Below are positions 3,690-61,759 of a stretch of 64,000 nucleotides of DNA, piece by piece. This DNA comes from Actinomycetes bacterium (GTDB lineage Bacteria; Actinomycetota; Acidimicrobiia; Acidimicrobiales; Ilumatobacteraceae). The position numbers and the translations under genes are program-made. The number at the start of each line of letters is the position of its first letter. Positions within the stretch are counted from its first letter, which is position 1. The notes under the pieces were generated by a model. The model was not told the DNA's origin. It saw only the letters and a program-made list of their open reading frames with translations, and searched no databases. The DNA lies in contig JAIOPC010000014.1 in NCBI GenBank assembly GCA_021414085.1, positions 868,001 through 932,000 on the forward strand, read 5' to 3'.

Positions 3690-3764
3690 GGCGACGTGGC
3701 CGAGTGGCTGAGGCAAGGGCCTGCAAAGCCCTCCACATGGGTTCGATTCCCATCGTCGCCTCCA
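3690..3764 (+). tRNA. tRNA-Cys (GCA)
   Basis: The acceptor stem GGCGACG (3690-3696) pairs exactly with CGTCGCC (3754-3760). The discriminator is T73 (3761), as expected for tRNA-Cys, and CCA is encoded (3762-3764). The anticodon arm is AGGGC-CTGCAAA-GCCCT, giving anticodon GCA. The T arm is ATGGG-TTCGATT-CCCAT. The following genes look compositionally different, and tRNA 3' ends are common integration sites, but I found no second copy of the tRNA 3' end before 8.1 kb. Confidence 0.96.
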
Positions 3765-18409: not shown

Positions 18410-19064
18410 TGGTTGTCTCCAAGTTCTTCGCTAGTAGTCGGCGGACGACATTGACGAATGTTTCGGGGTCTTGCGCACCGGGCACCATCCAGCGGCCGTC
18501 GAACACAAAGGTCGGGACCGCAGTGATCTCCGCCTCAGCGGCGATTTGCAGCAACGTCTGCACCTCGGCGCTGCCGTCCTCGCTGTTCAGAAAGTCGCGA
18601 ACAGCATCGGGGGCCATTCCGACATCCTGTGCACAGTTGGCAAGCGTCGCTATATCGCCGATATCGAGGCCTTCGCAGAAGTAGGCCCGCATCAGTCGTT
18701 CCTTCAACGCGTACTGATTGCCGGTGGCTTCCGCCAACCACAGCAGGCGGTGGGCGAGAAGGGTGTTGGCGCGCAATGCCAGATCCATACGGAACTCGAG
18801 ACCTTCGCCAGCAGCGACGGTGGTGACGTGGTCGATGATCTGGGCTGCGCGCTCCTCGCCGCCGAACTTCTTGGCGTATGCCTCGACAACGGGCACGGAC
18901 TTGCCAGGTGACGCTGTCGGATCGAGTTGGTAGGGGCGGAACACGACCTTCAGGTCGACTTCGTCGCGCAGCGCGGCTGCGGCCGCTTCCCACCTTCGCT
19001 TGCCGATGTAGCACCAAGGGCAGATGACGTCGGACCAAATCTCGACTGTTAGCGATGGACGCAC
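18402..19064 (-). CDS. DsbA-family oxidoreductase (FrnE-like)
   Basis: About 220 residues. It starts with a thioredoxin-fold strand and the redox motif CPWC (SDVICPWCYIGKRRWE), and ends with the cis-Pro region ITAVPTFVFDGRWMVPGAQ. This is the FrnE/2-hydroxychromene-2-carboxylate isomerase-like DsbA group. No signal peptide or membrane helix is seen, so it is cytosolic. GTG 19064 is chosen; an ATG at 19097 is possible but overlaps the divergent menD start. It overlaps menH by 8 bases, so the two share a transcript, but no biochemical link to menaquinone is evident. Confidence 0.82.
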   Translation of the reverse strand: MRPSLTVEIWSDVICPWCYIGKRRWEAAAAALRDEVDLKVVFRPYQLDPTASPGKSVPVVEAYAKKFGGEERAAQIIDHVTTVAAGEGLEFRMDLALRANTLLAHRLLWLAEATGNQYALKERLMRAYFCEGLDIGDIATLANCAQDVGMAPDAVRDFLNSEDGSAEVQTLLQIAAEAEITAVPTFVFDGRWMVPGAQDPETFVNVVRRLLAKNLETTNV

Positions 19065-19095
19065 GGGTTCACGATACGCCCCTATCGTTGCGACC

Positions 19096-20757
19096 ATGAC
19101 GCGGGCGCCGGAGGATGTGCAAGCAACGTTCTGCGCCACCCTGGTTGATCAATGGGTGCGGATGGGGCTGCGCCATGCAGTGGTCGCACCCGGCTCGCGC
19201 AGCACTCCAATGGCGCTGGCTTTGGCCGAGCGATCCGATGTTGCGCTGCAGATCGCGCACGACGAGCGCTCGGCGGCATTCATCGCTCTCGGGATTGGTT
19301 TGGCAACCCACGTGCCAGCGGCGCTGCTGTGCACCAGCGGCACAGCTGCAACGCACTTCCATGCGGCCGTCGTAGAAGCCGACTTGTCGGGCGTTCCGCT
19401 GCTGGTGCTGACCGCGGATCGCCCGCCCGAGTTGCAAGGCATAGGAGCGCCGCAGACCATCAACCAAGTGCGGTTGTACGGCGATGTTGTGCGCTGCTTT
19501 GCAGACCCAGGCGTGGCCGAAGGCGGCGAGGCGTCGACCTGGCGCGAGATGGCTGCGCACTGGTGGGCGCTGGCGACCGGCCGCGATGCCGGGCCAGTGC
19601 ACGTCAACCTGCAGTTCCGCGAGCCCCTCGTAGGCGTCGCTGGTGAATTGCCGCCAGCAATTGCGTTGGCGGACGGGCCCGGTGAGTTGCCGTCACAGGA
19701 ACTCGCCACAGTCGCGACCTTGCTGACCGGCAAGCGAGGGCTGATCATTGCGGGCGGCGGCGTGTCCGATGCTGCATCGGTCGCGGCATTGGCGAACATG
19801 TTGCAGTGGCCAGTGTTTGCCGACCCACGCTCGGGTTGCCGTGGCCTGGCGCAGGCCGTGAGTTGTTTCGACGCGATCCTGCGAGCCACTCCGTTTGCTG
19901 CCGCGCACAGACCGGAAGTGGTCTTGCACCTTGGCGAGCCTCCTGCGTCGAAAGTGCTCGGCCAATGGCTGCAGGCTGGCAGCGCCGTTCACGTTCATGT
20001 GCACGAGCAGCGGCGCACAATCGATCCGCTCCGGCTTGTTACGCACCGCATCACTTGCGACACGACGAGTTTCTGCAACGAACTGTCCGCGCTGCTGAGC
20101 CCAGCGACCGAAACAACGTGGTTAGCCGATTGGCGACGCGCCGAGCAGCTCGGACAGCAAACGATCGATGCCACTGTCGCGGCTCGCTCGCTTTCGGAGC
20201 CCCAGGTTGCTCGCCTTCTCAGCGATGGCGCACAGCTGGTCGTGTCCTCGTCGATGCCGGTGCGTGATGTCGAGTGGTTCGGCCAATCGGGATCGACCAC
20301 GCGGGTGTACTCGAACCGCGGTGCAAACGGAATCGACGGCGTCATCGCTACTGCGATCGGCGTTGCTGTCGGGTCGGGCGACAAGACGGTGGTGTTGCTC
20401 GGCGACGTCGCGTTCTGTCACGACCAGTCGTCGTTGACCGCGCTCGCCGCGCGCCGGCTGCCAATCACCATCGTGGTCGTCGATAACGATGGCGGCGGCA
20501 TCTTCTCGTTCTTGCCGCAAGCAACGACGCTGCCGTCGGAACGATTCGAGCAATTGTTCGGTACACCACATGGCACCGACATTGTCGCTGTTGCGCGTGC
20601 TCACGGGCTCGGCGCGACGACGGCAACCACCCTCGGCGAGTTGCGGGCTGCTCTCGCCGACGCCGCCGTCACCGTTGTGCGCGTGGCGTCAGATCGAACA
20701 CGCAACGTTGTGGAACACAACCGCATTAACGCCGCAGTAGCAGCTGCGATCAGTTAG
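19096..20757 (+). CDS. menD: 2-Succinyl-5-enolpyruvyl-6-hydroxy-3-cyclohexene-1-carboxylate synthase
   Basis: About 553 residues of thiamine-diphosphate enzyme. The N-terminal domain has VVAPGSRSTPMALAL, which binds isochorismate in MenD, and the catalytic-Glu strand region HDERSAAFIALGIG. The C-terminal TPP motif is GDVAFCHDQSSL ... DNDGGGIFSFLPQA. MenD joins isochorismate with 2-oxoglutarate, the first committed menaquinone step. The ATG at 19096 is where homology begins. The last ~109 coding bases are repeated at 22899-23007 downstream, as the end of a duplicated segment. Confidence 0.95.
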   Translation: MTRAPEDVQATFCATLVDQWVRMGLRHAVVAPGSRSTPMALALAERSDVALQIAHDERSAAFIALGIGLATHVPAALLCTSGTAATHFHAAVVEADLSGVPLLVLTADRPPELQGIGAPQTINQVRLYGDVVRCFADPGVAEGGEASTWREMAAHWWALATGRDAGPVHVNLQFREPLVGVAGELPPAIALADGPGELPSQELATVATLLTGKRGLIIAGGGVSDAASVAALANMLQWPVFADPRSGCRGLAQAVSCFDAILRATPFAAAHRPEVVLHLGEPPASKVLGQWLQAGSAVHVHVHEQRRTIDPLRLVTHRITCDTTSFCNELSALLSPATETTWLADWRRAEQLGQQTIDATVAARSLSEPQVARLLSDGAQLVVSSSMPVRDVEWFGQSGSTTRVYSNRGANGIDGVIATAIGVAVGSGDKTVVLLGDVAFCHDQSSLTALAARRLPITIVVVDNDGGGIFSFLPQATTLPSERFEQLFGTPHGTDIVAVARAHGLGATTATTLGELRAALADAAVTVVRVASDRTRNVVEHNRINAAVAAAIS

Positions 20758-20771
20758 GGCGGCGGGCCGGC
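20649..20771 (+). repeat. menD 3'-end direct repeat, copy 1 (within menD)
   Basis: These 123 bases (last 36 codons of menD, its TAG stop and 14 following bases) match 22899-23021 without indels and with six mismatches. It is the left boundary of the unit carrying the lipoprotein gene. Confidence 0.9.
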
Positions 20772-20826
20772 ATCCTGGGCCTGAAGGCCTCAGTGAGCCG
20801 CTTTGGTCAATGACTACCATCAAGCT

Positions 20827-22824
20827 ATGCGGCAAACCGTTCGACGTCTGATGGCCCCTGTTCTCTTGCTTCTCATTTCTTGCTCAGGTTCCCATTCAGA
20901 TGAAGGGGTCGCCTCAACTTCGCCGGAATCCGCCGTGCTGGAGCCGGGTCGCATTCTGGATCTGGAATCGGATCTCGATCCGTTGACCGACGAGTTGGCC
21001 GCCATTCGCGAGGGCACCGATGGGTCACTGCCGATGCAAGATGCGCTTGATCTATTTGCCTCGGCATTCGGAGAAATGCCCGGTGGGAACGCCGCGCGAT
21101 TTGAGGGATCCACGGAATTCGCCGAGCTCGCAATACGCGAAGTCATGCGGCATTGGCAGGAGTTGACCAGCGAACAGCAAGACACCGTGCGGGCGTTGAG
21201 AGGAAATCCGGGACAAGCGTCCTCGTTACTCGCCTCGCCGCCCGATACGACCTCCGACTCGGAACTGGAGGCTGCGAAGGCTTTGGCAGCGGAGGCGCAG
21301 GCCGCAATAGCAGCCAGGCTCGGAATCGAGCTGCCGTTTCCAATTGAGATCTCGCTCGTCCACCATCTTGGAGCGCTTCACCCTGAACTCGTTCCCCCTG
21401 GAAGCACCGGCATCGCAGGAATGACGTGGCCGCTCGATGAGGACGGAGAACTCGCAATGACCGGAGGCGACGTGGTCCGTTGTGCCATCGATCTACAGCC
21501 ACCCGTCAATCCCGGCACCGTCTACCACGAGATCTTCCACTGCTTCCAGTACGCACTCACCGGTGACGCTTCTCTCTACTGGTCCATACCAGGTTGGATC
21601 TCTGAGGGTTCAGCCGTTTGGGCCACCAACGAATTTGTAGATGATTACCGAACGCCATGGATCTTTCAGCAGTGGATACTCAGCACACGCTCTCTCTACT
21701 CGATGTCGTACGAAGCGTTCGGCTATTACCTGGTTCTCGATTCAATGGGAGTCTCCACGTGGGATGTCATCGGCGACATGCTGACTTCTGGTGGCAACGA
21801 AGCGGCCGTCGCCGCAAGTGGACTCGAGCCCATGCGGGTTCTGTCACGAGTCGTAACGTCAAAAGCGCGAGCTCGTAGTGTCTCCGGTTTGCCGGTGTCG
21901 GATATATGGGACTTTTCCGCGGCGAATGTTCCGAGGGACGGCTACTTCACTGATGCGACGGTCTCCCCAGGTTCGCCAAGTCAGGCACGGTTCGGTTTGC
22001 GGGCGTTCGCAGCCGCGCCGGTCGAAGTTATCCATGTGGAGCGAGGCAGCGTTCTACAGGTAGCTCTCCACGGCGACGTCGGCGCCTTGGAGTTTTTTGG
22101 CCAGCAACCGATCGAATGGAACGACAGCCTGGTGCGAAGTTTCTGCCTGGACGAAGGTGGCTGCGTTTGCGGCGCCGATGAACTTGAGCATGGCGCGCAG
22201 GACCTAATTCTTGGGGTTGGGCAACTCCACGGAGGATCAGCCCGTGTCGACGTTCGTGTTGCTGACATCGCATTCACCGATGGCAACTGGGCTGGAACAA
22301 TTTCCTCCCCGGATCTCACGATCAGTGGCGCTGCCGGAAGCGGATTTCGACCAGGAGCCGAAGCGGCGATCAACTTCACCGTTGAAGATGGTGCCGTCAC
22401 TTCCGGAACCTACGGACTGCAGTTCCCCGCCATCTTCGACTCGCCAGTGGGGACCGGCAGCGGAGTCGTATCGATAGCCGGTCAAGTCGTCGGCTGCGGA
22501 TATGCCCCTGAACTGGAACCCACCACGCTCGTCATCGACGCAACAGTCGAACTCTCGGCAGGCTTCTCAATTCCAATGCAGGCCGAGATCGACTTTGCCG
22601 CCGGCACCATCACCGTGGAGCAAGCCGGAGCCCCGCCACAAACACGACCGCTTGGCGACATAACTTCCACGTCGACGGGGTTCACTTCCTGGCTCATCGA
22701 AACCGGCAGCACTCCAACAAACCGGGTCGGCCAACTCGAGGCCACTGCAGAGCTAGCAACGATGACCGCAGCAGGATTCGCCGTCGGCGACTTTCAATTC
22801 AGATTCGACATCAGTCGCGCCTAA
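20827..22824 (+). CDS. Lipoprotein with HExxH zinc-peptidase-like motif (cargo gene between menD and menF)
   Basis: About 665 residues with no family I can name. A lipoprotein signal peptide ends in LLLLISC (Cys19). The middle has HEIFH (residues 234-238), followed by PGWISEGSAVWA with Glu260; HExxH plus a downstream EGxAxW Glu is the arrangement of gluzincin-type (peptidase MA) zinc proteases. The C-terminal ~300 residues look beta-rich, with Cys pairs (CLDEGGCVCG). The ATG at 20827 is preferred because it starts the signal peptide. Codon use is less GC-extreme than in menD. The gene lies between two copies of the menD tail, so it looks acquired. Confidence 0.75.
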   Translation: MRQTVRRLMAPVLLLLISCSGSHSDEGVASTSPESAVLEPGRILDLESDLDPLTDELAAIREGTDGSLPMQDALDLFASAFGEMPGGNAARFEGSTEFAELAIREVMRHWQELTSEQQDTVRALRGNPGQASSLLASPPDTTSDSELEAAKALAAEAQAAIAARLGIELPFPIEISLVHHLGALHPELVPPGSTGIAGMTWPLDEDGELAMTGGDVVRCAIDLQPPVNPGTVYHEIFHCFQYALTGDASLYWSIPGWISEGSAVWATNEFVDDYRTPWIFQQWILSTRSLYSMSYEAFGYYLVLDSMGVSTWDVIGDMLTSGGNEAAVAASGLEPMRVLSRVVTSKARARSVSGLPVSDIWDFSAANVPRDGYFTDATVSPGSPSQARFGLRAFAAAPVEVIHVERGSVLQVALHGDVGALEFFGQQPIEWNDSLVRSFCLDEGGCVCGADELEHGAQDLILGVGQLHGGSARVDVRVADIAFTDGNWAGTISSPDLTISGAAGSGFRPGAEAAINFTVEDGAVTSGTYGLQFPAIFDSPVGTGSGVVSIAGQVVGCGYAPELEPTTLVIDATVELSAGFSIPMQAEIDFAAGTITVEQAGAPPQTRPLGDITSTSTGFTSWLIETGSTPTNRVGQLEATAELATMTAAGFAVGDFQFRFDISRA

Positions 22825-22870
22825 CTCGTTAGCAAACACAATCCGTGCCGCGTGAACGTTGCCCCCACGA

Positions 22871-22900
22871 GTCGACTATGGCGGCACGATCGCGCTCAGC
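22871..22900 (-). pseudogene. Remnant of a menF 3' end
   Basis: These 30 bases match 23827-23856, the end of menF, at 26 positions. Read on the minus strand they encode LSAIVPP followed by TAG, compared with LSAIVRP and TAG in menF. The remnant joins directly to the menD-tail copy that begins at 22899 and marks the right end of the first cargo unit. Confidence 0.75.
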
Positions 22901-23021
22901 TCTCGCCGACGCTGCCATCAGCGTTGTGCGCGTGGCATCAGATCGAACACGCAACGTTGTGGAACACAACCGCATTAACGCAGCAGTAGCAGCTGCGATC
23001 AGTTAAGGCGGCGGGCCGGCA
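22899..23021 (+). pseudogene. Remnant of a menD 3' end (direct repeat, copy 2)
   Basis: This stretch is 117/123 identical to 20649-20771. It keeps the menD frame to a TAA stop (23005-23007), with mostly synonymous or conservative changes (two of six alter an amino acid: Val to Ile, Thr to Ser). That pattern suggests the copy came from a related functional menD and did not decay in place. It overlaps the last codons of the M50 peptidase gene on the other strand. Confidence 0.88.
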
Positions 23022-23760
23022 CCCCGATGTGGAGTTTGGAAGACTCGGATGCGAACGACTCCGAGAGTCGGCCGCGGAGACCGTCGTCGAACAAAGTCTG
23101 TTCCATGACCTGCAACTTGCGATCGTCGATCTGCAACTTGCGATCGTCGACTGCCTCAACGGCCGGTGTGCGGGCCTGACGACGTGCTTGCTTGATGATC
23201 GATCCGTCATTGCCTTGCACTGGAACAAGGTTGTAAACGCCGAGGCAAGCCTGGATCGTCCCCGCGAAGAGGCAGAACGCAGTCAAAGGAGCGTTGGCGC
23301 GGAAGGTCAACCACACCACAGCGAAACTCGCAGCGGTGACTAGATCGCTCGCGGGTCCGGCCACCGCCATTACTGCCCATGCCCTAGGCGTGTTAGAGGC
23401 TGCTGGCGCACGGAAGAAGACGTAGGGCCGGTTGCCAACACCGAAACCGGTCAGCTTCAGACCCACCTGCCGACCGGCCAGAGCGTGAGACGTCTCATGC
23501 AGGACGGGCCCGATGAACGCCACCCAGACCATCGCGGCCGCGATGCCGAGCAACACGGATTCACCTGACAAGCGCCAGGCCCACACGAAGATGGTGATAA
23601 GGCTCACCCACGCCAGAATCCCGCGCAGGGCACCAGCGTGCAACCGAAACCGGTTGCGCTGCCACACAACCCTGCCCGCCGGTACGAAACCGATCGGCGA
23701 CCAGCGACCGGCAGAGTCCCAATTGGGATGGTTGCTCGTCGCGTTTTCACCGATGGACAT
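22999..23760 (-). CDS. M50-family (site-2-protease-like) membrane metallopeptidase
   Basis: 253 residues. Hydrophobic helices flank the zinc motif HETSH (residues 88-92), and the second conserved site NLVPVQGNDG (177-186) matches the N-x-x-P-x-x-x-x-D-G of site-2 proteases. This suggests an intramembrane or membrane-embedded protease without PDZ or CBS domains. Near the C-terminus DDRKLQ is tandemly repeated (205-218), from a 21-base DNA duplication at 23110-23151. The last codons run into the menD-tail remnant, so the C-terminus was probably altered by the rearrangement. It lies 71 bases after menF on the same strand. Confidence 0.82.
   Translation of the reverse strand: MSIGENATSNHPNWDSAGRWSPIGFVPAGRVVWQRNRFRLHAGALRGILAWVSLITIFVWAWRLSGESVLLGIAAAMVWVAFIGPVLHETSHALAGRQVGLKLTGFGVGNRPYVFFRAPAASNTPRAWAVMAVAGPASDLVTAASFAVVWLTFRANAPLTAFCLFAGTIQACLGVYNLVPVQGNDGSIIKQARRQARTPAVEAVDDRKLQIDDRKLQVMEQTLFDDGLRGRLSESFASESSKLHIGVPARRLN
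23110..23151. repeat. 21-bp tandem duplication inside the M50 gene
   Basis: CTGCAACTTGCGATCGTCGA occurs at 23110-23129 and 23131-23150, giving two 21-base units. In the minus-strand protein this doubles the heptad-like peptide (I/V)DDRKLQ. The frame is kept. Confidence 0.9.
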
Positions 23761-23831
23761 GAAAGCCTCATCGGCCTGTCAAGCGAGCACCTTGAATCCG
23801 TCGCGAGGACGACTCGGCTCGCGCGGGTCGA

Positions 23832-25004
23832 CTAGGGGCGGACGATCGCGCTCAGCATGGCCTGCAGCTTCGCTTGCGTTTCGGCGAGCTCGCTGAGGGG
23901 ATCGCTTTCGGCGACGATTCCGCCGCCAGCCACCAAGCGGGCTTGCCGTCGATCCGCCGAAAGTTCTGCGCAACGAATCGCAACCGCCCACGTGCCGTCG
24001 CCGGCGGCGTCGACCCAACCGACCGCGCCGCCGTAGCGACCGCGGGTGAAGCCCTCGGCACGCGCGATCAATGCGAGCGCCTCGTCGCGGGGGAACCCGC
24101 CGAGTGCGGGCGTGGGCGAGAGCGCCCGCACCAGATCCAGCACGTGTGGTCGCGGATCGCTGAGCTGACCCTCTAGCGCAGTGCCGAGGTGCTGCACATT
24201 GGCGACGCTGATGATTGATGGTTCCGGCTCCCAATCGAGGAAGCTGCAAAAGGGCAACAACGTGTCGTGGATCATGTCGATCACTACTCGGTGCTCGATC
24301 TGGTTCTTCTCGCTGGCGAGCAGTTCTGCAGCTGCTCGCCGATCTGTCTCCGGGTCGCCGGTGCGAGCGGTCGTGCCCGCGAGCGGGTGACAGCGAACCG
24401 TGTTTCCTTCGACTGCGATCAGCAACTCCGGCGACGCACCAATGAACCCGTCGACGGAGTACCGGTAGCTGCTGCCGAAACTGGCTTTCAGTCGCCGCAG
24501 CACCGCATGCACATCGATGGGCTCCGGGCTCGTCACGATGACTTCGCGGGCAATGACCGCCTTCGTCAACAGGCCGTCGCGTACTGCGTTGCGCGCAGTG
24601 GTGACGGCAGCGAGGTAGTGATCTACGTCTGTTAGCGGTGCGACAGTGAACGCCTGCGCCTTCGGTTCCGGACGCGATGCAGGAGGCTCGAATGTCGCCC
24701 CATCGATCATGGTCACCCAGCGGCGTCCATCGGCATCCTTGCCGACGACGACCTGCGGTATCACGAGTTCGCATGGTGCGCCGGGCTCGAACGGAATCGA
24801 ACCAATCGCAAGCGGATGAACGTCGCCTACCTCATCGATGTGATCGATCGCTGACAACGCGACAGCAACGTCGCCGAGTGGAACGCGAGCCGCGACACCG
24901 CGACCGGCGATGCCGACACCATCGCGTACGAACAAGTAGCCGTCTCCGGCGGCAACGTCGTTGAGGTCGACATCTTCGACGAGTGGTCGAGTGTGTGCGC
25001 GCAT
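23832..25004 (-). CDS. menF: Isochorismate synthase (MenF/EntC type)
   Basis: A 390-residue chorismate-utilising enzyme: FIGASPELLI, RCHPLAGTTARTGD, SEKNQIEHRVVIDMI, TPALGGFPRDEAL, and C-terminal YGGAVGWVD ... RLVAGGGIVAESDP. The HPLAGT and GGFP elements and the lack of an amidotransferase partner indicate isochorismate synthase and not anthranilate or aminodeoxychorismate synthase. It supplies isochorismate to MenD. One base separates it from menG upstream, so the two form an operon. Its last bases recur as a remnant at 22871-22900. Confidence 0.9.
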   Translation of the reverse strand: MRAHTRPLVEDVDLNDVAAGDGYLFVRDGVGIAGRGVAARVPLGDVAVALSAIDHIDEVGDVHPLAIGSIPFEPGAPCELVIPQVVVGKDADGRRWVTMIDGATFEPPASRPEPKAQAFTVAPLTDVDHYLAAVTTARNAVRDGLLTKAVIAREVIVTSPEPIDVHAVLRRLKASFGSSYRYSVDGFIGASPELLIAVEGNTVRCHPLAGTTARTGDPETDRRAAAELLASEKNQIEHRVVIDMIHDTLLPFCSFLDWEPEPSIISVANVQHLGTALEGQLSDPRPHVLDLVRALSPTPALGGFPRDEALALIARAEGFTRGRYGGAVGWVDAAGDGTWAVAIRCAELSADRRQARLVAGGGIVAESDPLSELAETQAKLQAMLSAIVRP

Positions 25005-58690: not shown

Positions 58691-58773
58691 GCCCGAGTGG
58701 CGGAATGGCAGACGCGACGGACTCAAAATCCGTTGTCCGCAAGGGCGTGTGGGTTCGACTCCCACCTCGGGCA
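58691..58773 (+). tRNA. tRNA-Leu (CAA)
   Basis: Acceptor stem GCCCGAG (58691-58697) pairs with CTCGGGC (58766-58772), discriminator A. The anticodon arm ACGGA-CTCAAAA-TCCGT gives anticodon CAA. A long variable arm (TGTCCGCAAGGGCGT region) and the T arm GTGGG-TTCGACT-CCCAC fit a class II leucine tRNA. CCA is not encoded. It is divergent from fabD. Confidence 0.96.
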
Positions 58774-58789
58774 CAGTGTTGGTCGGCGG

Positions 58790-59041
58790 TTAAGCCTTCT
58801 TGGACGGGCGCTGGGCGAGCGCACTTCCAGCAGCGCTCTTGGCGGTCTTGCTCGCTCGATGCGACTTCAGGGTCTTCGATGCCGCCGTCGCCGTTGCGGC
58901 ACTCGTCACGTTCTTCGAGCCGCGCTGCGAGAGCGTGCTACCAGCAGCGCTCTTGGCGGCTTTGCTCGCTCTATGCGATTTCAGGGTCTTGCCGGCAGCC
59001 GAAGCGGTGGCTTGGCTCGTCTTTGCTTTTCTGGCTTCCAT
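58790..59041 (-). CDS. Small Lys/Ala-rich repeat protein, probably nucleic-acid binding
   Basis: 83 residues, very basic, almost no hydrophobic core. It is a tandem duplication: AGKTLKSHRASKAAKSAAGS and ASKTLKSHRASKTAKSAAGS, each followed by a (T/A)L(S/A)QR-SK tail. This composition is like histone-H1-like tails and small basic actinobacterial proteins; no defined domain. It begins with a weak AGAGAG upstream of ATG 59041. It could be a DNA-binding or low-complexity protein; no function can be assigned. Confidence 0.7.
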   Translation of the reverse strand: MEARKAKTSQATASAAGKTLKSHRASKAAKSAAGSTLSQRGSKNVTSAATATAASKTLKSHRASKTAKSAAGSALAQRPSKKA

Positions 59042-59125: not shown

Positions 59126-61759
59126 TTACTCCGTGTCGTAGTAGCCGCTGACGTCCGCGATGAGGTCGACGTTGGCAGACGTGAATAGGCAGACTTTGCC
59201 GCCAGTACCGACTTTGGTGATGACGAGGTTGGGGATTGTGTCGCCGGAGACGAAGTTGAGGTTCGATGCGTTGGGCAGCGCGGAACCGCACGGATAGGCG
59301 GTGATGAATCCAGCGTCGCCGGTAGCGATGACGGTGACGTTCAACACCACGGTCTCTGCACCAGCTGGCACGCCGTGACGCCCAGTGACTTGGAGTTCGG
59401 TCGTCGAGCCGGCGGTGCGGGTGCCTATTGCTTGGAAAGCCCCATCGACAGTAGGACTGGCCGGCACGCGTGAGTCGAGTAGTCGTCCCGGGACCAGGGA
59501 TTCGTATTTCGCGGTCGCCGGGTAGTAACCGTTCACGTCGGCGATGAGGTGTGTGTCGGCTGACGTGAACAGGCAGACTTTGCCGCCGGTGCCCAGTTGC
59601 GTGATGACCAGATTGGGAATCGTGTCGCCAGCAACGAAGTTGAGGTTCGATGCGTTGGGTTGTGGCGCGCCGCACGGATACACCGTCGCGAACCCGTCGC
59701 CCAACGCGGCGGTGGCGGTGATGTTCAGCACGACTGCTGCCGCATCCGAAGGCACGCCGTGACGCCCCGTGACCTGTAGCTCAGTCGTGGTTCCGGCGGC
59801 GCGGATTCCGATGGCTTCGAAGGCGCCATCAACCGTTGGACTCGCGGGAACACGCGAGTCGAGTAGCCGACCGGGCACGAGTGGTGTGTAGGCCGACGCG
59901 ACGGGGTAAAAGCCATTGACGTCGGCGAGCATGTGCGTCGCAGCGGAGGTGAAGATGCACACTTTGCCGGCGACGCCGACTTGTGCGACGACGAGGTTGG
60001 GAATGGTGTCACCCGCAGCAAAGTTGAGGTTGGACGCGTTCGGTTGCGAGGCACCGCACGGGTAGACGGTGACGAAGCCGTCACCCAATGCGCCCACGAT
60101 GGTTACGTTCACGACTGCTGCCTCGGCATCGGCCGGAACGCCGCCGCGGCCAGCGACCTGCAACTCGGTCGTCGACCCAGCGGCGAGCACGCCCGCTCCT
60201 TGGAACAGTCCATCGACGGTGCTGCCACCGGGGCGCGTGTCGAGCAGGCGCCCCGGCACCAGCGACGCGAACTCGCGCCCAGCGAGTTTCCATACATACG
60301 CGTCTTGGTTGCCGAATGCCGTGCGGTTGGTTGTTCCGGCACCCGGATTGAAGTCGGCGGTTCCGAAGAAGTAGCCCGTGACGAACACGGTGCCGCTGAC
60401 GTCGACGTCGACTCCGTACGCCAGATCGGTGCTGCCGCCCGCGAGGGTTCTCGTCGCAACTAGGTTGCCATCGCTGTCGAGGTTCCACACGAATGAGTCG
60501 TTGAGGGCTGCCGAGGTGGAGTTGGCGGTGCCCGCACCCGGATCGAAGTCCACCGTGCCGTTGAAGAAGCCGACGGTGTAGGTGTTGCCAGCGGCGTCGG
60601 CGGTCATCGCCAGGGGCGAGTCGAAGGCCGTTCCAGTAGCTTGCCGTCCCCATTGGAAACTGCCCGCCGCGTCAAGCTTCACAACGAAGACGTCGTTCGT
60701 TCCCGAGCCTGCGGCGGTGATGTTGTTGGTTCCAGCCCCAGGGTTGAGGTCGAGTGTTCCAAAGGTGAAGCCTGTCGCGTACACGTTGCCAGCCGCGTCC
60801 GTTGCGAGGTCGCGAATCTCTTCACTCGCCGTTCCGGCGAAGCTCTGCGCCCAGACGAATGTGCCTGCGCTGGTTAGCTTGGTGATGAATCCCTCGTATG
60901 TCCCCGCGTAGGTGCCGAATACGGCGCCGGGACCGGGATCGAAGTCGTTGACGTCGATGCCGATGTAGGAACCTCCCACCAGCACGTTTGAGTTGCTGTC
61001 AAGGGTTAGCCCCTGCGCTTGCACGTACTGACCACCGAATTGGGCCGCCCAGACGAATGTGCCAGCGCTGTTCAGCCGCAACACGAATGTATCGGTACCG
61101 CTTGGAGCTCCGAGCGGTGTCATGTTGTGCGTTCCAGCACCAGGATCGAAGTCGACTGCGGACGAGCCAACGAAGGTGCCAGTGAGAAACACGTTCGCCG
61201 CGGCGTCGACAGCGAGATCGACGACGCCGTCGGCGCCCGCCCCGCCAAACGTGTCAACCCATTGCATCGCGCCATCGGCGTTCAGCTTCACGACGTACGG
61301 GTCGATGTCGCCGTTTGACACGCGGTTGGCGGTGCCCGCGCCGGGATCGAAGTCGCTCGTGCCCGCGAAGTTCCCCGCGATGTAGATGTTGCCGCTTGCG
61401 TCGAGCCCGAGCGAGCTTGCCCGGTCGACTCCCGCTCCACCGAGTTGCTTGACCCACACGAAGTTGCCGAAGGCGTCCAGTTTCGAGACAAAGCCGTCGA
61501 TGGAGCCGAAGGACGTCAGGTTGCTCGTGCCCGCCCCCGGGTTGAAGTCGGCGGTGCCCGAAAACTCGCCAATGGTGTAGATGTTGCCCGCACTGTCGAC
61601 GGCGATGTCGTTGCCTTCGTCGCCTGACGTGCCACCCATCTGCGCGGCCAACAAGAGATCACCCTCCGCGGCGTGCGCCGTGGACGCGCTTGGAACGATG
61701 GTCACCAGCAGTGCCAACAGAGTCGGCGTTGACAAGCGGCGAGCGCGGTGCATTCTCAC
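59126..61759 (-). CDS. Secreted SBBP/beta-propeller repeat protein with three C-terminal repeat domains
   Basis: 877 residues. The N-terminus is a signal peptide (hydrophobic PTLLALLVTIVPSAS, likely cleaved after STAHA). About 480 residues of SBBP-type repeats follow, each with D-x-A-G-N-(I/V)-Y-x-x-G-x-F and (D/N)F(D/N)PGAGT elements, eight or nine copies. Three related domains of about 115 residues come next, each starting (S/P)LVPGRLLD(T/S)R and containing VYPCG.xxPNASNLNF and DTIPNLV. It is secreted and may bind the cell surface or polymers through the C-terminal domains. Role unknown. Confidence 0.88.
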   Translation of the reverse strand: MRMHRARRLSTPTLLALLVTIVPSASTAHAAEGDLLLAAQMGGTSGDEGNDIAVDSAGNIYTIGEFSGTADFNPGAGTSNLTSFGSIDGFVSKLDAFGNFVWVKQLGGAGVDRASSLGLDASGNIYIAGNFAGTSDFDPGAGTANRVSNGDIDPYVVKLNADGAMQWVDTFGGAGADGVVDLAVDAAANVFLTGTFVGSSAVDFDPGAGTHNMTPLGAPSGTDTFVLRLNSAGTFVWAAQFGGQYVQAQGLTLDSNSNVLVGGSYIGIDVNDFDPGPGAVFGTYAGTYEGFITKLTSAGTFVWAQSFAGTASEEIRDLATDAAGNVYATGFTFGTLDLNPGAGTNNITAAGSGTNDVFVVKLDAAGSFQWGRQATGTAFDSPLAMTADAAGNTYTVGFFNGTVDFDPGAGTANSTSAALNDSFVWNLDSDGNLVATRTLAGGSTDLAYGVDVDVSGTVFVTGYFFGTADFNPGAGTTNRTAFGNQDAYVWKLAGREFASLVPGRLLDTRPGGSTVDGLFQGAGVLAAGSTTELQVAGRGGVPADAEAAVVNVTIVGALGDGFVTVYPCGASQPNASNLNFAAGDTIPNLVVAQVGVAGKVCIFTSAATHMLADVNGFYPVASAYTPLVPGRLLDSRVPASPTVDGAFEAIGIRAAGTTTELQVTGRHGVPSDAAAVVLNITATAALGDGFATVYPCGAPQPNASNLNFVAGDTIPNLVITQLGTGGKVCLFTSADTHLIADVNGYYPATAKYESLVPGRLLDSRVPASPTVDGAFQAIGTRTAGSTTELQVTGRHGVPAGAETVVLNVTVIATGDAGFITAYPCGSALPNASNLNFVSGDTIPNLVITKVGTGGKVCLFTSANVDLIADVSGYYDTE

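Follow-up and report, generated by a model that had tools for sequence, protein, structure and literature searches.

Two menD-menF intervals with different cargo genes lie head to tail at a variable site in an actinobacterial genome

The menaquinone (vitamin K2) genes menD (+) and menF (-) were found in convergent orientation in the window, i.e. the whole stretch of 64,000 nucleotides that was analysed (contig JAIOPC010000014.1, positions 868,001 to 932,000; Ilumatobacteraceae). A total of 3,074 bases separates the two genes and holds two cargo genes, with a remnant of the menF end and a remnant of the menD end where the cargo genes meet (Table 1). Both menD and menF are continuous, and no missing gene part was seen at the locus.

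Table 1. Features identified at the menD-menF locus, in positions of the window
Feature	Position	Strand	Basis
menD, intact	19024..20757	+	TIGR00173 (E=2e-121), ORF list; start codon uncertain, ATG at 19096 likely
menD 3' end with 18 bp past the stop, copy 1 (within the intact gene)	20649..20775	+	
Cargo 1, 665-aa lipoprotein with lipobox LISC and HEIFH at residue 234, putative metalloprotease	20827..22824	+	
menF 3'-end remnant with in-frame TAG stop (LSAIVPP*)	22871..22900	-	26/30 to 23827-23856
Fusion point of menF remnant and menD remnant, GC common to both (2 bp)	22899..22900	.	Comparison with the continuing intact menF and menD
menD 3'-end remnant, copy 2: last ~109 bp of menD with TAA stop, and 18 bp	22898..23024	+	94.4% to copy 1; tblastn match to MenD residues 518-561
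Cargo 2, 253-aa putative M50-type membrane metalloprotease with HETSH at 88 and NLVPVQGNDG at 177	22999..23760	-	
Intact menF 3' end with 5 bp past the stop	23827..23856	-	
menF (isochorismate synthase), intact	23832..25004	-	TIGR00543 (E=2.6e-79)

Both cargo products are putative metalloproteases, as judged by their motifs. The profile match of the lipoprotein was weak (NF045524, E=1.6e-4, far under the model cut-off), its assignment also leans on the HExxH motif, and a Pfam search returned no family for it. The second product matched PF02163 at 27.8 bits, barely above the cut-off, with the M50 motifs present. The two cargos are unrelated: each matched only its own place, and nothing beyond the tails was common to both. 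Solved-structure relatives were sought for the cargos and none was found, the search for a plasmid or phage source placed them on no plasmid or viral contig, and promoter and terminator scans gave nothing exceeding chance. The G+C content is 59.3% for the lipoprotein gene, 62.2% for the M50 gene and 63.3% for the window. The lower value of the lipoprotein gene is only a hint that this cargo could be the newcomer, and the anatomy permits either.

Within the M50 gene, an in-frame 21-bp tandem duplication (window 23107-23154) produced DDRKLQIDDRKLQ close to the C-terminus. A second paralogue of the lipoprotein, 29% identical, was present in the same genome (G000:C14:194220-195461, L064), and other distant relatives lie elsewhere in G006, G008 and G010.

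The lipoprotein gene follows the direction of menD and the M50 gene that of menF, so the joint between the two remnants has become the new convergence point. The stop codon of the M50 gene sits within the remnant menD tail, which suggests that before the event its 3' end probably extended into that of a functional menD.

The 3' end of menD recurs 2,249 bp downstream (126 bp, 94.4% identity, E=2e-48 by BLAST). Taken over 133 bp, from 20643-20775 to 22892-23024, the identity is 92%, and the offset of 2249 pairs position 20649 with 22898. With 464 kb of this genome as background, the pair was one of only four direct repeats of at least 40 bp and at least 80% identity lying <12 kb apart. Past the stop 17 of 18 bases are identical, and the copies differ at 20649, 20664, 20668, 20672 and 20688, then at 20733, 20757 and 20773. 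A sequence-only reading made earlier had counted 117 matches in the 123 bases of 20649-20771; the match is real, and the recount gave 116. That reading was right that the remnant menD tail keeps its stop (TAA), and its description of the changes as mostly synonymous is weak, with 3 of 5 sense-codon changes synonymous and no significant departure from random change (p about 0.14-0.18).

The two menF ends agree at 26 of 30 positions, the same figure as counted before, with frame and TAG stop kept (LSAIVPP* in the remnant against LSAIVRP* in the gene), and a match at least this good has a chance of about 1e-11 of arising at any one place. GTCGAC stands past the stop in both copies, together with a weakly similar stretch farther out (p 0.016). 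The menF remnant adjoins the menD remnant, and when the junction was aligned at 22898-22901, as had been proposed, the fusion point fell at 22899-22900 with an overlap of two bases, GC. Through both tail repeats the earlier claim was established that the menD-to-menF interval is present twice, head to tail, with a different gene in each.

Both MenD tails read ...RNVVEHNRINAAVAAAIS, a stretch in which every relative differs, and the tail residues EHNRIN are found in both copies and in 0 of 14 relatives. Therefore the two units resemble each other far more than either resembles any known relative. The tails share a lineage, and by their residues both units would come from the same species or a sister one. 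As the flanks past the menD and menF stops are shared too, the units represent one site in two versions that differ in cargo, and are not duplicates of a single unit. VPP in the menF remnant, where 13 of 14 relatives have VRP or IRP, may be decay.

Neither the ORF list nor profile searches revealed an integrase or transposase gene in 20758-23831, terminal repeats were not found at the cargo edges, and the tRNAs nearest to the locus are at 3690 and 58691. Insertion of a mobile element, whether an additive island, an integron cassette or a tRNA-site element, was rejected for want of such a gene, of a tRNA target and of terminal repeats. Ordinary tandem duplication copying the whole unit was rejected as well, the match being confined to the tails and the cargos being unrelated.

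In the relatives where both menD and menF could be read, the two are usually convergent, with stops that overlap or are separated by anything from a few bases to about 190. Among 47 genomes having both genes, cargo of >200 bp was present in 7 of the 14 with menD at least 57% identical and in 0 of the 33 others (Fisher p=5e-5, the 57% threshold having been picked after the data were seen). The site is empty in several relatives, among them L081 (G006), the nearest one on both the menF and the menD trees, where the stops overlap by 11 bp. The cargo consists of an S9 peptidase and a 162-aa unknown protein in L082 and L083, a relative of the 162-aa protein alone in L087 and L088, an MFS transporter in L093, and an endonuclease-like gene, an ECF sigma factor and a third unknown gene in L091 and L112. 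The identified cargo genes of relatives are also oriented as menF. Different cargos fall in different clades on both trees and the nearest relative is empty, so the site gained genes several times; within the genus, the interval between menD and menF is truly variable. Unrelated segments between the same conserved flanks are seen here between species of a genus, and like the small variable segments or dimorphic loci already described (PMC2884548) they are short, element-free, placed between conserved genes and variable among relatives; at the present locus, in contrast, two variants occupy one chromosome.

At the junction of L091 (7273-9694) and L112 (7272-9671), the endonuclease-like gene carries an MTES_1575 domain and the third gene encodes a small protein. 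A 157-192-aa protein without Pfam family lies between menF and menD in four species (L082, L083, L087 and L088). The contigs of L084 and L085 (G011 and G004) end by menF in a run of ~20-bp tandem repeats (GGCACTCGCACCGGGGCTGT), even in a 99%-complete assembly, and in these genomes a long minisatellite may occupy the gap between menD and menF.

The two-unit arrangement was found in no relative. The sequence-only reading had named its presence in every close relative as the observation that would count against recombination, and the nearest relative is empty while others carry different cargo. The reading had also expected relatives with neither gene, which were found, and relatives with the lipoprotein gene only or the M50 gene only, of which there was none in the 14 genus genomes or in 55 menF-bearing loci. 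Parental alleles were likewise encountered in none of 200 family genomes per cargo and none of 397 order genomes per cargo. When the loaded relatives were searched for menD and menF tail remnants of their own, none stood clearly above the shuffled background.

Two alleles fused head to tail are the best available explanation of this locus. The convergent menD/menF junction is a variable insertion site in the genus; two alleles, menD-lipoprotein-menF and menD-M50-menF, would have been present in the same lineage, and linear DNA with one allele would have entered a cell holding the other. Homologous recombination would then have taken place at the long end. With the lipoprotein allele as donor, the crossover would lie inside menD and the remnant menD tail would be the resident's; with the M50 allele as donor, the crossover would lie inside menF. 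The other end would have been joined illegitimately via about 2 bp of microhomology, which put about 25-30 bp from one menF end next to the final ~110 bp of the other menD. In this way the incoming allele would have been set beside the resident one with no replacement, menD, menF and both cargos staying whole, and a fossil menF-tail/menD-tail joint would have been left where menD-lipoprotein meets menF-M50. Either donor direction gives exactly the observed product with both housekeeping genes whole.

Such pasting of a linear sister allele beside the resident, by a homologous crossover at one end and a ~2-bp illegitimate join at the other, is considered moderately probable. It is supported by the tail copies and the 2-bp joint, the unrelated cargos, the empty nearest relative, the clade-specific cargo and the flanks common to both units. 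The genome encodes Ku (PF02735) and a ComEC-family protein, which are compatible with end joining and uptake and are proof of neither; the ComEC-family protein was present in 10 of 14 controls and is common in bacteria, so it does not demonstrate competence. Against the fusion stand the parental alleles, seen in no genome searched, the synonymous bias, which falls short of significance, and the fact that the case rests on one genome. Recombination between two versions of one site had been proposed from the sequence before; the variability of the site and the two-allele fusion agree with this proposal, and the single-cargo alleles it called for did not appear.

Homology-facilitated illegitimate recombination (HFIR) and its signature have been described, and the process is known in Acinetobacter, S. 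pneumoniae and P. stutzeri (PMC3240628, PMC2884548). As in HFIR, the locus would combine homologous DNA on one side, an illegitimate microhomology joint on the other side and foreign DNA inserted, and the 2-bp GC at 22899-22900 is an illegitimate joint of the kind with no or short microhomology. HFIR joints usually have 3-10 bp of microhomology and a ~1-kb deletion, which is usual and not universal (PMC3240628), whereas here just 2 bp are shared and no sizeable recipient deletion was seen alongside, which also counts against the fusion. HFIR also takes RecA-dependent uptake of linear DNA, on which side Ku and the ComEC-family gene were the only finds here, and none of the close relatives showed a starting point of donor sequence. 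In addition, the process is here read from sequence, and the donor was apparently another allele of this site, with homology at each of its ends.

A history with duplication first is rather unlikely, in which about 200-250 bp around a near-empty junction were tandemly duplicated and the lipoprotein and M50 genes were inserted independently afterwards. The joint matches the product of a plain tandem duplication with microhomology, the site repeatedly takes up genes, and VPP in the menF remnant is expected for a decaying non-functional copy. However, three events are required, each cargo having to land cleanly in a separate short gap, and jointly neutral copies should diverge alike, whereas the flanks by menF show far less similarity than the menD tails do (the stretches being short).

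The circular form offered by the sequence-only reading, though possible, is unlikely and also unnecessary. A fragment with menD tail, cargo and menF tail would have been circularised by end joining, Ku being encoded in this genome, and one homologous crossover in either tail, menD or menF, would yield the same product; circularisation of linear DNA followed by a single crossover is documented in E. coli (PMC3240628). The differences between the menD copies are sparser toward the 3' end, a pattern that a crossover within the tail could produce, but this clustering depends on eight positions. Moreover the circle would have only about 123 bp (menD) or 30 bp (menF) of imperfect homology, whereas a linear donor could use the whole of menD or menF. 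An assembly artefact, two strains with different alleles being merged into a false contig, is very unlikely: the genome is an 18-contig assembly and the related records are metagenome assemblies, but the joint lies inside a 1.03-Mb contig, its 2-bp overlap is far under an assembler k-mer overlap, both cargo frames are open, and there is no N run in 464 kb.

Fusion of two alleles may also be compared with other known arrangements. In the stacked orphan immunity-gene arrays of Vibrio cholerae type VI secretion clusters, for which HFIR was proposed (PMC5361080), a new module was likewise inserted at a variable 3' site with part of the old module kept downstream. The present locus differs in keeping both cargos whole, in lying at a plain junction of two convergent genes, and in having its joint marked by tails from each of the flanking housekeeping genes. 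Flexible genomic islands of the additive and replacement types (PMC4033161) resemble the locus in that differing cargo is exchanged at the same place by recombination in shared flanks, whereas the locus is much smaller, with one or two genes and an interval without integrase or transposase. Literature searches on convergent-gene insertion hotspots and gene-tail remnants gave no closer case. On the best available reading, the locus would be a clear, well-preserved and fresh case of a known event type.

Element-free gene accumulation at fixed chromosomal spots is usually deduced from strain comparison, and here the joint itself is preserved. The fusion would mean that a failed replacement can turn into an addition that leaves both neighbours intact. 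It also directs attention to a capture site specific to this lineage, in an uncultured genus of actinobacteria, where the process could be traced in population metagenomes. As a more tentative suggestion, the junction could be a recurrent capture site which stacks whole alleles by between-strain exchange without a mobile element, the window then holding a fusion intermediate before remnant decay.

Two other repeats were observed in the window. One is an 80-bp direct repeat at 58797-58990, the copies 114 bp apart, beside a tRNA-Leu (58691-58774); it may lie within a repetitive small-protein gene on the minus strand. Another is a tandem repeat at 59138-60111 with a period of 384 bp and 2.5 copies at 73%.
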